Below, one piece after another: positions 10,879-37,599 of a stretch of 47,384 bases of DNA. Location of the stretch: the NCBI GenBank assembly GCA_030426785.1, contig JAUHXY010000002.1, forward strand, positions 1 through 47,384, read 5' to 3'. This DNA comes from a bacterium. Lineage in GTDB: Bacteria > Planctomycetota > UBA1135 > GCA-002686595. The notes under the pieces were generated by a model that saw only the letters and a program-made list of their open reading frames with translations, was not told where the DNA came from and made no database searches. Every line of letters starts with the position of its first letter. The stretch's first letter is position 1. Position numbers and translations under genes: made by a program.

Positions 10879-12558
10879 TTAGAAAGTCACTACGAGCGCG
10901 TTGGAGAAGTTCGACTCGCCTACTCCAGCGCCACCATCCCGGTGCCAAGCCTGGAACGTCCAAAGTTCGCCCACTTGAATGACGGGCTGGGATACGTACG
11001 GAATGGTCGCAGGTACATCGAATCCGGTACCACTGCTGGACGTGCCAACCAAGTTGACCAATTGCCCGGAGCCGTTGAACACTCCAATCGAATTGGCTTC
11101 TGTGCCCGATTGGTTGTAGCGCACAAAAAACTGGTTCGCGAGGGTCGACAAACACAAGCGACCATGAGAGACCACGATCCCCGGGTCATCCCAAGAACTA
11201 CCCACCAGCAAATACCCAAACTCTCCGGGAGGCCCTTGTAGGACCTCCAAGTGCAGCCCTGACGTGGCCGCAGGAGCGTAGGACCCTACTAAAGTCGTCG
11301 ACATCCCGGTCGAGTTTGGATCCATCGGGTCGCAGATCCGCGCCCCCGAAAGTTCGCAATCGTTCGCACCCGTCAACTGCAGCTGGTACGAGTTGCAGAG
11401 GGTGGTGGAAAACGGCCAAACCGACACCTCCAAAACACACCGCATCACTGTGGGTCCAGGATTCGTCCATTGCACTTGTTCCGAATCGGTGCCGAATTGC
11501 GTACTCGCGTCGAGCAAGAATCCGCATCCCGCCACGGGCTCGAACCGATGGAGCCGCAGGTTCAGATCGCTTGCCAGCCCCACGAATGCAATGTCGGCTG
11601 TCACCGTGTCACCGGGCTGCACGCAGAAAGTGAAGTAGTCCGGATCCCCATCCGAAACTTCCAAGTCCTGATAGAGACCAGCTGCTATCGCGCTCGGTTG
11701 CCAACATGTGTCGTTGTCCTCCCATGCGTCCGGAGTCAAGCAAGGGGTAGGCTCAATCTGCACGTCCAGGTCATAAAACGTGTAGGGCACAGAGTAGGCC
11801 TCGGTAGTAGCGCGCACGGTGACCGTCGCGGTTGTGGCGCCCTGGTTGACAAACACCGCACCCTCCGGATTCGCTCCTCCTAGGCCAGTTCCGGTCCAGC
11901 CCGCCAGGGCGTACTGCGCGTCCGCGCTGTCCGCCGATTCCAGAAGGACCATTCGGTGGCCCACCGGGACATCGATGGCGTAGTGGTCTCGATCCCCCAC
12001 AGAAACCCACAAGCCGTTGTAGACCCCCGGTCCCATCGGACTGGCGGTCGCGACCGAATCGTTGTCCTCGAAGGGATCGGCCGGTGCCCCAAAGATGTTC
12101 AACTGGCCCGGCGCGCCGGGCCCAAAGACATCAAAACCGACCTGCAGCATGATCACATCGCCTGCGGCCAACCCCGACACCGAGATCGCCGCCGGATCCC
12201 CGTTGAAGTAGTGGTTGTAGGCCAGGCACGCAGCGGCACACCCACTCCCATCGAACGCAGCGATCTCGGTTTGCCCCACGCTGCCGACCGTGTCGAAGAC
12301 AAAGTCCCCCGCAAAAGGCGCGGTCCAGGCAAAAAACTTGTCCGCGTTCGCGAAAATGTTGCTGACGCCGACGGCGCAAGGTTGCGCTCCGAAGAATCCG
12401 GAATGTGTCAGTGTCGTAGTGGCAAAGGAAAAAGTTCCCATACCGGTGAGGACTTCAGGACTTGAGCAATCATCCCCTTGGGCGCTTGCGGGCGCCGCTA
12501 GAGCACTAAGGAGGATAGAAGAAGGGAGAACCCAGGGGTTGCGTACAACGTGCTTCAT
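10879..12558 (-). CDS. Secreted protein with two PPC-like domains and a shared C-terminal module
   Basis: Exported protein of 559 residues. The start at 12558 gives MKHVVRNPWVLPSSILLSAL with a cleavage site after ASA (residue 26 or so). Two pre-peptidase-C-terminal (PPC) like modules are recognised by the signature DPFEDNDS (161-168) with GDRDHYAIDVPVGH (188-201), and by DAWEDNDT (277-284) with GDPDYFTFCVQPGD (304-317). These beta-sandwich domains usually mediate stability or matrix binding in secreted proteins. The last 150 residues (409-559) contain PNSTG, FGYLLVG, GRLCL and WTFQAWHRD followed by SNFSNALVVTF. The same pattern ends the beta-helix protein at 32950-35229. No catalytic domain is evident. 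It is a single gene, convergent with the plus-strand pair upstream. Confidence 0.8.
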   Translation of the reverse strand: MKHVVRNPWVLPSSILLSALAAPASAQGDDCSSPEVLTGMGTFSFATTTLTHSGFFGAQPCAVGVSNIFANADKFFAWTAPFAGDFVFDTVGSVGQTEIAAFDGSGCAAACLAYNHYFNGDPAAISVSGLAAGDVIMLQVGFDVFGPGAPGQLNIFGAPADPFEDNDSVATASPMGPGVYNGLWVSVGDRDHYAIDVPVGHRMVLLESADSADAQYALAGWTGTGLGGANPEGAVFVNQGATTATVTVRATTEAYSVPYTFYDLDVQIEPTPCLTPDAWEDNDTCWQPSAIAAGLYQDLEVSDGDPDYFTFCVQPGDTVTADIAFVGLASDLNLRLHRFEPVAGCGFLLDASTQFGTDSEQVQWTNPGPTVMRCVLEVSVWPFSTTLCNSYQLQLTGANDCELSGARICDPMDPNSTGMSTTLVGSYAPAATSGLHLEVLQGPPGEFGYLLVGSSWDDPGIVVSHGRLCLSTLANQFFVRYNQSGTEANSIGVFNGSGQLVNLVGTSSSGTGFDVPATIPYVSQPVIQVGELWTFQAWHRDGGAGVGESNFSNALVVTF

Positions 12559-32949: not shown

Positions 32950-35229
32950 CTATTGGAAGGTGATCGCTGCGGACTGTGTCGTGTTCGAGGTGCTGACCAC
33001 CCCGATGAAGTCGCGATGCCAAAACTGGAAGTGCCAGGTCTCACCCGGCAGGACCTGCGCTCCCAACGCGGGCAGTTCGGTCAGATCTAGGGTGCGGCTG
33101 ACCTCACCCGCCGCGTTGACCCGCTGCACGTTTTGGTTGAGCCGGTACAGCGCACCTCCCAAACACAGGGTGCCTTGGCTGCCTCCGAAAAAGGGGACGA
33201 AGCCAGGATCGGTAGCGATCAGGTAGTAGCCGGGCAGCCCCAGGGGCAACTGGTCGCTCAGCAGGATCACCAAGTTGCTGCCCACCGAGGAATTGCCCAG
33301 AGCTTTGAGAGTGCCCACCTGGCCGGAGGAGTTCGGCTGGCTCGTACAAACCGGAACGCTGATTTCTCCGGTGCATCCGGGGCCACAGTGCTGCGCGTCG
33401 AACAGGATGGCCCCCAGATCCAACGGCGTCCCGTCCGGATCGGTGGGCAGGTTGGGGTTGCCGGCATCGATCGCGATCGAACCGGGCAGGAGGTGCAGGT
33501 CGTTGGGCCCCCAGAATCGGGGGTCGCCATCGCGGTTCCCCGTTCCAACAAACCCGCCGGGCACCAAGCTGTAGGTCGCGGTCGCGTTGCCCGCCAGGTC
33601 GTCCGGTTGGTTCTCGAACACGATGCTGTGATCGAGCTGCACGTCGTACCCTGCCCCACCGGCTTGACTGGCTGCGTTGTGCACCAACGTGCCATGGGTC
33701 ACGCGCACGGGACCCCAAAAGGCGCCCCCTTGGCCTGGAGCGCCCGGCTGGCTCGCCTGCGCCAAATTGCGCTTCGCGATGCAACGCACCAGGTTGCCAC
33801 TGCCCTCGCTGGCGAGCGCTCCGCCCACAGCCGACTGCTCGGCCACCACCCGGTTGTCTTCGAACAAAGTATGCGAAACGTCCGCCGCTAGGGCCACGTA
33901 GAGCGCACCGCCCTTCGCGCCCGTGGCGGTACTCGTGGTGCTCGATCCCGCCACGTTGTCCGCAAACCAAGCTTGAGTGACCTGCAGCGAGTCCAGCGTC
34001 GCGATCGCACCGCCCAGCGAATCCTGGGCGTTGCTGGTCGGCACAGCCGCGTTGTGGGTGAAGGTACTGCCCTGCACGAAGAGCGGGCCAAGTGCAACAA
34101 AGATGGCCCCGCCCGCCTCCGCTTGGTTTTGTTGCAGGTGCGACTGCACGATGAAGAGGTTTTCAAAGCCCCACTTGTAGATGCTACCTCCGCGCTGGGA
34201 GGCTTGGTTGTCGATCAGCTGGCACTGCACAAACGAGGCGCGGCAGCCCACCAAGGCCACGGCTCCCCCGTAACCGTTCGCCACACGGCAACCCTGGAAG
34301 AGGCAATTCGTGAAAGCCACGTCTCCGTCAAACCCCAAGAAAGCCGCGCCCGATTGGTTTTGCGTGTGGTAGTTCTCGAATTGGCATGCCTCGATGGTGG
34401 CAAAGCAATAGTTCAGGTAGATCCCACGCCCACCGGCGGAACCGGGGGCATTACCCTCAAACGCACAGCCCGTGATTTCCACCGTCGCTTGGCGCGCCAA
34501 GAGGTGCATAGCAGCCTCGGGATGACCGGCGCCCGATCCATTCGGATTCATCTGCGTCTGGTTCATGACGAGCCGCCCGCGATCGATCACCAACCCGCCC
34601 CAGATGGGGGCGGCGGAGGACTCCCAAGTGCAGTTTTGCACGTCCAAATCGCTCGATACGGCATAAACGGCCCCATCGCCACCGTTGTCCCGGAACGTGC
34701 ATTGCACCAAGCGTGGCGCACCGCCATCGATGTGCACGGCCGATCCGGCCCCCCCCGCTAGGTTGTTTTCGAAGCGACAGTTTTCGATGCGCATGGAAGA
34801 TCCGCGCAGCACGACCGCCGCCGCTACGGTAGCGGAAACGCCCGGCGCGTCGCGCAGGGTGAAGCCCCGCAACACCGCCCCGCTCCCCTCGCCGGAAATC
34901 GCCTGCACCAGTGCATGGGGGGTCGTCCCCACTCCTAATCCGCGCACGACCGTCGAAGCCGGGCCGGCACTGCTTTGCAGGATGACTTGCTTGCCGAGAA
35001 AGTCGATCGACTCATCCACGTAGTCTCCCGGTGCGACCCAAATGCGATCGCCCGAAACGGTCGTGCTCGCCGCCAGCGCCGCGTCGATGCGCGCAAACGG
35101 TTGCGCGAGGGTTCCGTTGCCCGGAGCGGTTGCACTGGCGTCGACGTACCAATCGGTGGCATGAGCGTGGCTCGCGAAGAGCAAACCCATGACCAAGGAG
35201 ACGGCGCTGGTTTGGCAAGGCAGGTTCAT
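32950..35229 (-). CDS. Secreted right-handed beta-helix protein with choice-of-anchor and shared C-terminal module
   Basis: 759-residue exported protein. MNLPCQTSAVSLVMGLLFAS is a signal peptide with cleavage near AHA-T (about residue 24). Residues 40-560 form a parallel beta-helix: repeated turns of the type xxxNCxFxxN with GGAI/GGAL/GGAV (examples GGAVALV, GGSIYKW, GGAIFVA, GGALYVA) as in pectate-lyase-like and polymorphic outer membrane proteins. The segment SIAIDAGNP near residue 585-592 is the choice-of-anchor Q motif. Residues 628-759 contain PNSSG, GYYLIA, GTLCLGG and WHFQFWHRD with TSNTTQSAAITF, matching the C-terminus of the PPC protein at 10879-12558. No catalytic residues of polysaccharide lyases are evident. 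Likely a surface adhesin or matrix protein. Confidence 0.85.
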   Translation of the reverse strand: MNLPCQTSAVSLVMGLLFASHAHATDWYVDASATAPGNGTLAQPFARIDAALAASTTVSGDRIWVAPGDYVDESIDFLGKQVILQSSAGPASTVVRGLGVGTTPHALVQAISGEGSGAVLRGFTLRDAPGVSATVAAAVVLRGSSMRIENCRFENNLAGGAGSAVHIDGGAPRLVQCTFRDNGGDGAVYAVSSDLDVQNCTWESSAAPIWGGLVIDRGRLVMNQTQMNPNGSGAGHPEAAMHLLARQATVEITGCAFEGNAPGSAGGRGIYLNYCFATIEACQFENYHTQNQSGAAFLGFDGDVAFTNCLFQGCRVANGYGGAVALVGCRASFVQCQLIDNQASQRGGSIYKWGFENLFIVQSHLQQNQAEAGGAIFVALGPLFVQGSTFTHNAAVPTSNAQDSLGGAIATLDSLQVTQAWFADNVAGSSTTSTATGAKGGALYVALAADVSHTLFEDNRVVAEQSAVGGALASEGSGNLVRCIAKRNLAQASQPGAPGQGGAFWGPVRVTHGTLVHNAASQAGGAGYDVQLDHSIVFENQPDDLAGNATATYSLVPGGFVGTGNRDGDPRFWGPNDLHLLPGSIAIDAGNPNLPTDPDGTPLDLGAILFDAQHCGPGCTGEISVPVCTSQPNSSGQVGTLKALGNSSVGSNLVILLSDQLPLGLPGYYLIATDPGFVPFFGGSQGTLCLGGALYRLNQNVQRVNAAGEVSRTLDLTELPALGAQVLPGETWHFQFWHRDFIGVVSTSNTTQSAAITFQ

Positions 35230-35518: not shown

Positions 35519-35755
35519 ATGAGCACCATCGATTGGATCACCGTCTACGTCGCTCCGAGCGAAGCCGAAGCCCAAATCCTCGCTGGCCTCTTGATCAGTG
35601 AAGGGCTGGAGGCCCGCGTGGCGGGTGACCAGCTCACCGATGAATTTGGGATGGCCATGCGCATGGGTCCCGTCGAAGTGGGAGTGCCGGAAGCGCAAAA
35701 GGAACGAGCCCTCGACATCGTCGCCGCTTGGCGCGCACGCGAGCAGGACGAGTAG
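35519..35755 (+). CDS. DUF2007-domain protein
   Basis: 78-residue protein matching the DUF2007 (putative signal-transducing) pattern: WITVYVAPSEAEAQILAGLLISEGLEARVAGD, then a VEVGVPEAQKERALDIVAAW segment. These small proteins have a ferredoxin-like fold of unknown role and are often found near regulatory or transport genes. The start MSTIDWITVYV at 35519 was chosen; the frame extends upstream with Pro-rich, non-homologous sequence. No SD-like sequence is obvious. The next gene is 117 bases away. Confidence 0.85.
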   Translation: MSTIDWITVYVAPSEAEAQILAGLLISEGLEARVAGDQLTDEFGMAMRMGPVEVGVPEAQKERALDIVAAWRAREQDE

Positions 35756-35859
35756 CGCAGCTGGCCGAGAAGGCCCTTCTCGAACCACCTGCGAAAGAGT
35801 CGCACCCGCGACACACCTTTCGAACCGAGTCGGCGACCACGCCGGCACCCTCGACCTCG

Positions 35860-35865
35860 TATACT
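35860..35865 (+). promoter_or_regulatory. Possible -10 element just before the cytochrome start
   Basis: TATACT lies at 35860-35865, with the start codon ATG beginning at 35872. A transcription start about seven bases after it would coincide with the ATG, suggesting a leaderless or nearly leaderless transcript. No good -35 is seen at the normal distance, so this is tentative. Confidence 0.3.
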
Positions 35866-35871
35866 CGCGCC

Positions 35872-37599
35872 ATGCATTTGCGCCGCGCCCTTTCGCACCT
35901 CTCGTCCCGTTCGCAGGTTTCCCTCAGCTTGGGTGGCTTGTGGATTCTGAGCTCGGCGCTCTTGAGCGCGCATGCGAGCTGGGCCACCGCCGGTGCGCCT
36001 CCGCAGCCGGCCCCGGCATTCGGCACTCATGCGATCCAAGACGATGCCGAGGAAGCCGCTCGCTTCTTCGTGTTGTCCGCCAGTTGTGCGCGCTGCCACA
36101 ACGCGGTCGAGACCAGCACGGCCCTGTGGACCGACACCGGAGAAGATGCTTCACCGATCGGCACGTGGCGCGCCTCGGTCATGGCCCAGTCGTTTTATGA
36201 CCCTTACTGGCGAGCCCAGATCGAACGGGAGTTGGCGCTCGCCCCCAACGAAGACGAACGAGCTGCCCGCAACGCGCTGTGCACCCGCTGCCACGCGCCC
36301 GCCGCGGTGCACGAAGCCCGTTTTGAAGGGCTCGCACCGCCGACCCTCGCTCAGTTGGACCAGGATCCGGCCGCAGCCGAGGGCGTGACCTGCACCATCT
36401 GCCACCGCATGACCGCGGAAGGCCTCGGCACTCCGGCCACCTTCGATGGTCACTTGCCGCTCGACTTCGCGAACAGGCTGTATGGTCCCTACCCGGATCC
36501 AGTACCTGGGCCGATGTTGGCCATGAGCGGCTACGAGATTCACTTCGGAGCCCACATGGTGGAATCCGCGCTGTGCGCCACCTGCCACACCTTGGAGACG
36601 AGTCACGGCAGCGGCGAGGCGGCGGGACATTTCCTCGAACAATCCCCGTACCTGGAGTGGCGCAACAGCGCCTTCACCCACGAGCGCGGCATCACCGACA
36701 CCTCTCGGTCCTGCCAGGACTGCCACATGCCGGTGATGGGCAACATGGCTCTCGCTCACAATCCCGCCGGAGGCAACTTCCCCTTCCTCTCGGAACGACC
36801 GAACGTGCGCTCGCACGCGATCGTGGGCGGCAACGCTTTGCTGCTCGATATGCTGGCGGCTGGCCGCGACGAATTGGGGGTGGCGGCGCCTGCCGATGAG
36901 CTGAAGGCTATGGCCACGGAAACGCGCCGCTACCTGCGCGAAGAAGCGGCGCACATCGAAATCGGCGAGGTCCAGTGGAGCACGGACCAACTGGAGTTCG
37001 TGGTCTTCGTCGAAAACCTGACCGGGCACAAACTGCCTACCGGGTATCCCTCCCGGCGGGTATGGCTGGAGGTGCAAGTGCAAACGGGCGAGCGAACGTG
37101 GTTCGCTTCCGGGGTCCCGGACGCCGAAGGGCGCATCGTGCCCCGCGGAGAGGGCTTGCGCCTTCCCCACCGGGATCGCATCACGAGCTCCGACCAGGTG
37201 CAGGTCTACGAAATGATCGCCCTGGACGAGGAAGGCCAACCCACCACCCAACTGAGCTCCATGCGGAAACGGCTCAAGGACAACCGCTTGTTGCCGCTCG
37301 GCTGGATTCCGGAGGGCCCCCACGGTGAAGAGACCGCCCCGGTCGGTCTGGGCGACGATGCAAACTTCGTGGGCAGCCTCGACCAGGTCACCTTCGCCCT
37401 CGAGATCCCCGCATCCGTACGCAACGCAGGTCGCCCCCAGGTGCAAGCGCGTCTGCTGTACCAATCGATCCCACCGGCCTGGGCGGATGACCATCGCGAT
37501 GTGGAGGATAGCCCCGCCTCGGTCCGCTTCCTGCGCTTGTACGACGCGGCCAAGACGCGCTACGAAGTGCTCGCGGAAGCCCGCAAGCTGGTGCGCTGA
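35872..37599 (+). CDS. Pentahaem cytochrome c, secreted
   Basis: Exported multihaem cytochrome of 575 residues. The N-terminus has a long hydrophobic signal (VSLSLGGLWILSSALLSAHA, about 16-35). Five CxxCH haem sites occur at residues 72-76 (CARCH), 137-141 (CTRCH), 174-178 (CTICH), 235-239 (CATCH) and 281-285 (CQDCH). The spacing and the motif IGTWRASVMAQSFYDPYW resemble the cytochrome c-554/HAO-type and large planctomycete multihaem families. Residues 300-575 lack further haem motifs and form a beta-rich domain (VENLTGHKLPTGYPSRRVWLEV and similar). Probably periplasmic electron transfer, possibly oxidising a small substrate; no partner gene is adjacent. The start MHLRRALSHLSSR at 35872 is preceded by TATACT. 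Confidence 0.9.
   Translation: MHLRRALSHLSSRSQVSLSLGGLWILSSALLSAHASWATAGAPPQPAPAFGTHAIQDDAEEAARFFVLSASCARCHNAVETSTALWTDTGEDASPIGTWRASVMAQSFYDPYWRAQIERELALAPNEDERAARNALCTRCHAPAAVHEARFEGLAPPTLAQLDQDPAAAEGVTCTICHRMTAEGLGTPATFDGHLPLDFANRLYGPYPDPVPGPMLAMSGYEIHFGAHMVESALCATCHTLETSHGSGEAAGHFLEQSPYLEWRNSAFTHERGITDTSRSCQDCHMPVMGNMALAHNPAGGNFPFLSERPNVRSHAIVGGNALLLDMLAAGRDELGVAAPADELKAMATETRRYLREEAAHIEIGEVQWSTDQLEFVVFVENLTGHKLPTGYPSRRVWLEVQVQTGERTWFASGVPDAEGRIVPRGEGLRLPHRDRITSSDQVQVYEMIALDEEGQPTTQLSSMRKRLKDNRLLPLGWIPEGPHGEETAPVGLGDDANFVGSLDQVTFALEIPASVRNAGRPQVQARLLYQSIPPAWADDHRDVEDSPASVRFLRLYDAAKTRYEVLAEARKLVR

Follow-up and report, generated by a model that had tools for sequence, protein, structure and literature searches.

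The DNA considered here is a window of 47,384 nt from contig JAUHXY010000002.1 of assembly GCA_030426785.1 (Planctomycetota; UBA1135; GCA-002686595), and all coordinates are given relative to this window. Two of its genes, both on the minus strand, encode exported proteins that end in the same type of domain, referred to as the module, which is preceded in each case by a different passenger. In the first protein, a Sec signal peptide (MKHVVRNPWVLPSSILLSALAAPASA^QGDD; 12481-12558) was recognized from its h-region and AxA site by a heuristic that also served to pick the start codon at 12558. It is followed by a passenger without significant Pfam domain (11362-12480) and by a module of 160 aa (copy 1; 10882-11361), defined by alignment and modelled by AlphaFold2 with a pLDDT of 94.7, whose final residue is also that of the protein, the stop codon lying at 10881-10879. 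Within copy 1, two cysteines, Cys10 (11332-11334) and Cys70 in the GRLCL motif (11152-11154), are the candidate halves of a disulfide. Further downstream, alignment and model both delineate a strand carrying the GELWTFQAWHRD motif (10936-10971), with the near-invariant Gly131, Phe136, Gln137, Trp139 and Arg141, and a terminal strand, SNFSNALVVTF (10882-10914), that reaches the C-terminus. The second protein spans 35229-32950, its stop codon (32952-32950) included. It starts with a Sec signal peptide identified by the same kind of heuristic (MNLPCQTSAVSLVMGLLFASHAHA^TDW; 35158-35229), continues with a right-handed beta-helix passenger (PF13229, E=3.7e-17; 33376-35157) and ends in a module of 141 aa defined by alignment (copy 2; 32953-33375), with one extra terminal Gln. 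Beyond the 5' end of this gene, and transcribed away from it, lies a gene (35728-37599, plus strand) for an exported protein with several CxxCH motifs that resembles a multihaem c-type cytochrome.

The preliminary description of this DNA had proposed that the two proteins, otherwise dissimilar, share their C-terminal region, which proved to be an understatement. The two tails align by BLASTP with E=3e-9, and their Smith-Waterman score of 109 exceeds that of all shuffled sequences (mean 32, sd 5.7, max 69 over 2000 shuffles), while the passengers are indeed unrelated (best BLASTP E=1.4). The position assigned to copy 1 was also accurate, in that the codon of the conserved Cys begins at 11334, the aligned module extending to 11361. 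Calling the first protein a 'PPC protein' was loose, as a Pfam search at E<=1 does not detect PPC in it; more generally, PPC reaches E<=0.001 in just 2 of 95 passengers.

Searches of the genome from which the window derives (4.02 Mb in 366 contigs, 85% complete) returned many further copies. With either tail as query, 110 and 114 matching segments were obtained at E<=1, and an iterated profile search over six-frame ORFs of the matching stretches gave 112 ORFs; a superfamily profile, described below, gave 113 matches at E<=0.01. Since a few ORFs represent fragments of genes that are frame-shifted or cut by a contig end, the number of genes is best put at about 110. The module is about 140-160 aa in size and exists in two length types, a long one of 151-163 aa (52 copies, to which copy 1 belongs) and a short one of 136-148 aa (46 copies, among them copy 2). 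All 98 full-length copies end 0-5 residues short of the stop codon, 87 of them within 0-1 residue; 46 terminate in Phe and many carry one residue more. None of the 98 is internal or repeated in tandem within a protein. Module genes often occur in small clusters, with at least two, and up to four, in 23 of the stretches examined, which suggests local duplication.

Almost all of the encoded proteins are predicted to be exported. A signal-peptide-like start was found, by a loose heuristic, in 80 of the 82 ORFs whose 5' end is complete. A stricter rule was satisfied by 56 of 77 module ORFs versus 71 of 398 other gene-like ORFs in the same stretches, and a lipobox-like start, as in lipoproteins, was seen in only 1/82 module ORFs. 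The passengers are diverse: Pfam recognized 53 families among 95 of them, including FG-GAP propellers, proteases (reprolysin, M43, M10 and S8), beta-helices and C-type lectins, and BLAST sorted them into 44 clusters, the largest of which comprises 22 proteins of this genome, including that of copy 1. A passenger-type protein related to this 22-member cluster is also encoded next to a module gene (L136:1-979, minus strand), its end being cut by the contig. Of the 123 pairs of modules that are at least 60% identical, 103 have passengers without detectable similarity, which points either to transfer of the module from one passenger to another or to its homogenisation.

Structure prediction with AlphaFold2 from the alignment of the 98 copies yielded an all-beta model with a mean pLDDT of 94.7, and a distant member of the superfamily, 19-35% identical to the rows of its alignment, is predicted to have the identical strand order (pLDDT 90.3). 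Foldseek comparison of the first model with the PDB returned no close relative (best E=0.03, TM 0.37), and the distant member gave weak matches to beta-sandwiches of the Ig/FN3 type (best E=7e-4, TM 0.44), all structural matches remaining below TM 0.5 by query length. These matches include LPMO-type and chitin-binding sandwiches and one glycopeptidase and are, as judged from the match list rather than from coordinates, Ig/FN3-like rather than of the membrane barrel type; the module is thus probably an Ig/FN3-like beta-sandwich, an assignment at the level of fold class. In this general respect it resembles Ig/FN3-like modules involved in adhesion or accessory to enzymes, such as FN3 and LPMO/X325-like sandwiches, but is unrelated to them in sequence and has extra strands as well as a long irregular loop. 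A viral structure library gave no significant match. Cys70 is kept in 98/98 copies of this genome and Cys10, always with it, in 97/98, and the 34 rows of the superfamily alignment have either both cysteines (17) or neither (17), with no mixed case. As the two residues are kept or lost together, they are likely bonded to each other, which in turn argues that folding takes place outside the cytoplasm. Near-invariant positions among the copies of this genome also include Asn16, Ser17, Gly67, Arg81, Gly131, Gln137, Trp139 and Arg141. The Gln137/Trp139/Arg141 motif is common to essentially all close copies, and the alternation of residues along the strand would place these three side chains on the same face.

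No Pfam or NCBIfam model recognizes the module in the 98 copies of this genome or in 34 distant members, a Caf1 match in 1/98 copies (E=0.005) being at chance level. Likewise, a wide profile run against PDB sequences hit antibody light chains (E>=0.004) only locally and weakly, which was taken to reflect a shared Ig-like strand composition and not homology. A plasmid collection contained no match to copy 1, and no description of the module was found within the open-access literature. It is an unnamed, new domain superfamily, of an already known functional kind. In related genomes, searches with a narrow profile reach saturation for most genera of the family and give 0-2 matches for others. This apparent dichotomy between high- and low-copy genomes is partly an artefact of the narrow profile: when a wider profile was built from the relatives, followed by a superfamily profile (34-row alignment), the module was found in all of the 20 genomes that were analysed in depth, with 15 to at least 150 copies each, and 'low-copy' genomes proved to hold 15-116 divergent copies. 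In a sample spread over the phylum, 84 of 392 Planctomycetota genomes were positive, including 41/41 of the listed members of the same order. All carriers that have a name are metagenome-assembled genomes, most of which bear the label Planctomycetota bacterium. The module had been thought to be a lineage-expanded domain. Expansion is borne out, with about 110 copies here and from tens to more than 100 in relatives, but its confinement to a single lineage is not, since a divergent form occurs across the whole order and in several other Planctomycetota families. One relative with a genome of 9.0 Mb stands out with 723 first-look candidates, far above any other genome; 64 of these were scored.

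What might such a tail do? Sorting, anchoring and adhesion had been suggested initially, and this short list still stands, except that no known sorting enzyme tracks the module. The analogy with other many-to-one C-terminal tags could make it a processing signal for sortase, exosortase or a C25 (PorU-type) peptidase. Sortase was found in 0/26 genomes, with three control genomes positive; the C25 peptidase is patchy (9/26 genomes) and, like exosortase, absent from the 85% complete assembly of this genome. Within the family, exosortase is commoner in low-copy (10/13) than in high-copy (4/17) genomes, as counted with the narrow type of module, and it is possible that exosortase and the module represent alternative strategies for surface proteins. 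The module also lacks a transmembrane helix followed by a basic tail, and a hydrophobic C-terminal anchor is absent, a 19-aa stretch with a mean hydropathy of 1.6 occurring in 1/98 modules. The three enzymes, absent or not tracking the module, were rejected as partners, and a role as processing signal for any of them is very improbable.

Comparison with the corresponding tags leads in the same direction. PEP-CTERM is a C-terminal homology region shared, many to one, by signal-peptide proteins of diderm bacteria (PMC1569441). The module has neither its PEP motif nor its transmembrane helix and basic tail, being instead a whole folded domain that ends in a beta-strand. GlyGly-CTERM with rhombosortase and LPXTG with sortase are further many-to-one C-terminal tags (PMC3237569), in which a short motif precedes a transmembrane segment, whereas a folded domain is found here. 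The tail of an autotransporter or other outer-membrane protein would be a membrane-spanning beta-barrel with an aromatic last residue; of the 98 full-length copies, 46 end in Phe, and the structural matches are of the Ig/FN3 rather than the barrel kind. The closest of the tags compared is the CTD of the type IX secretion system (T9SS), itself an Ig-like beta-sandwich (PMC4804311) that terminates otherwise unrelated cargo proteins exported by Sec. The module differs from it in having no sequence match, in its larger size (140-160 aa and about 10 strands versus 7 for the CTD), in its cysteine pair, in its ability to be N-terminal in relatives and in belonging to another phylum. As it lacks the tested hallmarks of PEP-CTERM, GlyGly-CTERM and the T9SS CTD, it was filed under none of these families.

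The likeness to the T9SS CTD nonetheless bears on function. The module could be a C-terminal signal for translocation across the outer membrane, recognized in the periplasm by an undiscovered, clade-specific translocon and then perhaps cleaved or kept. The strongest argument for this is the strict terminal position, as expected of a C-terminal sorting signal; the single copy per protein, the Sec signal peptides, the shared Ig-like fold and the mix-and-match passengers, which resemble T9SS cargo and in four cases contain GBD_T9SS_assoc, are also in keeping with it. Against it, no Pfam T9SS-tail model matched any of the 98 + 34 copies, the C25 peptidase is distributed as described above, and SprA (SprA_N) was found in 0/30 genomes, although the control genomes were equally silent. 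Placement in relatives is also relevant. While the stop follows within 0-5 residues in 124 of their modules and after 15-29 residues in three, which look like sequence errors, 12 further modules lie far from the C-terminus, directly behind the signal peptide. In three genomes, the N-terminal module precedes an FGE-sulfatase-like domain of about 246 residues (8 complete ORFs and 2 truncated), and in two cases (L172, L182) it precedes a PKD-like and a CxxCH-containing, haem-type domain. Retention of the module at the N-terminus disfavours a strictly C-terminal sorting signal, while a folded domain for anchoring or binding could well persist in that position; these cases could also be secondary re-use. 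Overall, a T9SS-like translocation signal is a real possibility, with the chances leaning against it.

Our tentative preference, held with slightly less than even confidence, is for the tail being an independently folding extracytoplasmic Ig/FN3-like sandwich that serves as a putative common surface-anchoring or adhesion tag. It leads narrowly over the T9SS-like signal on account of the N-terminal placements and of the lack of a known sorting enzyme that tracks the module. Such a tag likely holds exported proteins at the cell surface, or routes them to it; the surface location, the common partner and the anchoring itself are all inferred from computation. In this scheme, the protein would be exported by its Sec signal peptide, the putative disulfide would form in the periplasm, and the folded protein would take a general route through the outer membrane, e.g., by secretins as in type II secretion. 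Secretins are present in 17/17 genomes examined and may provide such a type II-like exit, which says nothing specific to the module. Once outside, the module would bind one common partner, such as a surface polysaccharide, lipopolysaccharide or a protein of the envelope or matrix, with the result that the cell or its matrix would display proteases, lectins, beta-propellers and beta-helices. Against anchoring, the C-terminal location, kept almost without exception in over 200 copies, is stricter than is usual for adhesion modules, and the best PDB matches of the predicted structures are weak (TM <0.5 by query length).

The partner could also lie outside the producing cell, the module then acting as a substrate-binding, carbohydrate-binding-like domain that keeps enzymes and adhesins on environmental polymers. 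A beta-sandwich with a conserved Trp/Gln/Arg strand, the weak structural matches to LPMO-type and chitin-binding sandwiches and to a glycopeptidase, and the proteases and lectins among the passengers would fit such a role. However, the motifs are unusually uniform over about 110 paralogues, as expected for a single shared partner, and most passengers are not glycan-active by Pfam, which makes substrate binding improbable compared with surface anchoring.

The preliminary description had also envisaged a conserved processing or secretion gene co-occurring with the module; none was identified among the families chosen in advance. Clustering of the ORFs around module genes likewise revealed no dedicated neighbour, no shared family being larger than about 9; ORFs that appear to be in the wrong frame lead the top two clusters, and one cluster consists of a passenger-type protein. 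It is conceivable, if rather unlikely, that the module marks the cargo of an as yet undescribed system for outer-membrane secretion or surface attachment in this Planctomycetota clade, functionally parallel to T9SS with non-homologous machinery and carrying a sizeable share of the secretome of each genome. If so, more than 100 proteins would be concerned in this genome, and the 9 Mb relative offers 723 first-look candidates; should the partner be a translocon, it would define a new bacterial secretion system. In any event, the module is an overlooked element common to the secretome of an almost uncultured group of Planctomycetota, with about 100 exported proteins per genome sharing one tail. 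A profile of it would allow thousands of proteins to be annotated and provide a clean input to phylogenetic profiling for the partner, for which PEP-CTERM and exosortase set a precedent (PMC1569441).

The fusions of an N-terminal module to an FGE-like domain show a peculiarity of their own. Several paralogues are present per genome (L174, L159, L165, L163, L176, L149, L179, L166 and L210, from metagenome-assembled genomes of relatives), and their last ~40 residues are highly variable around RGGxW...CRSAxR...GFRVVL. A diversity-generating retroelement was considered and rejected, as a motif scan of the flanks revealed no reverse transcriptase; variable C-termini are normal for FGE domains.
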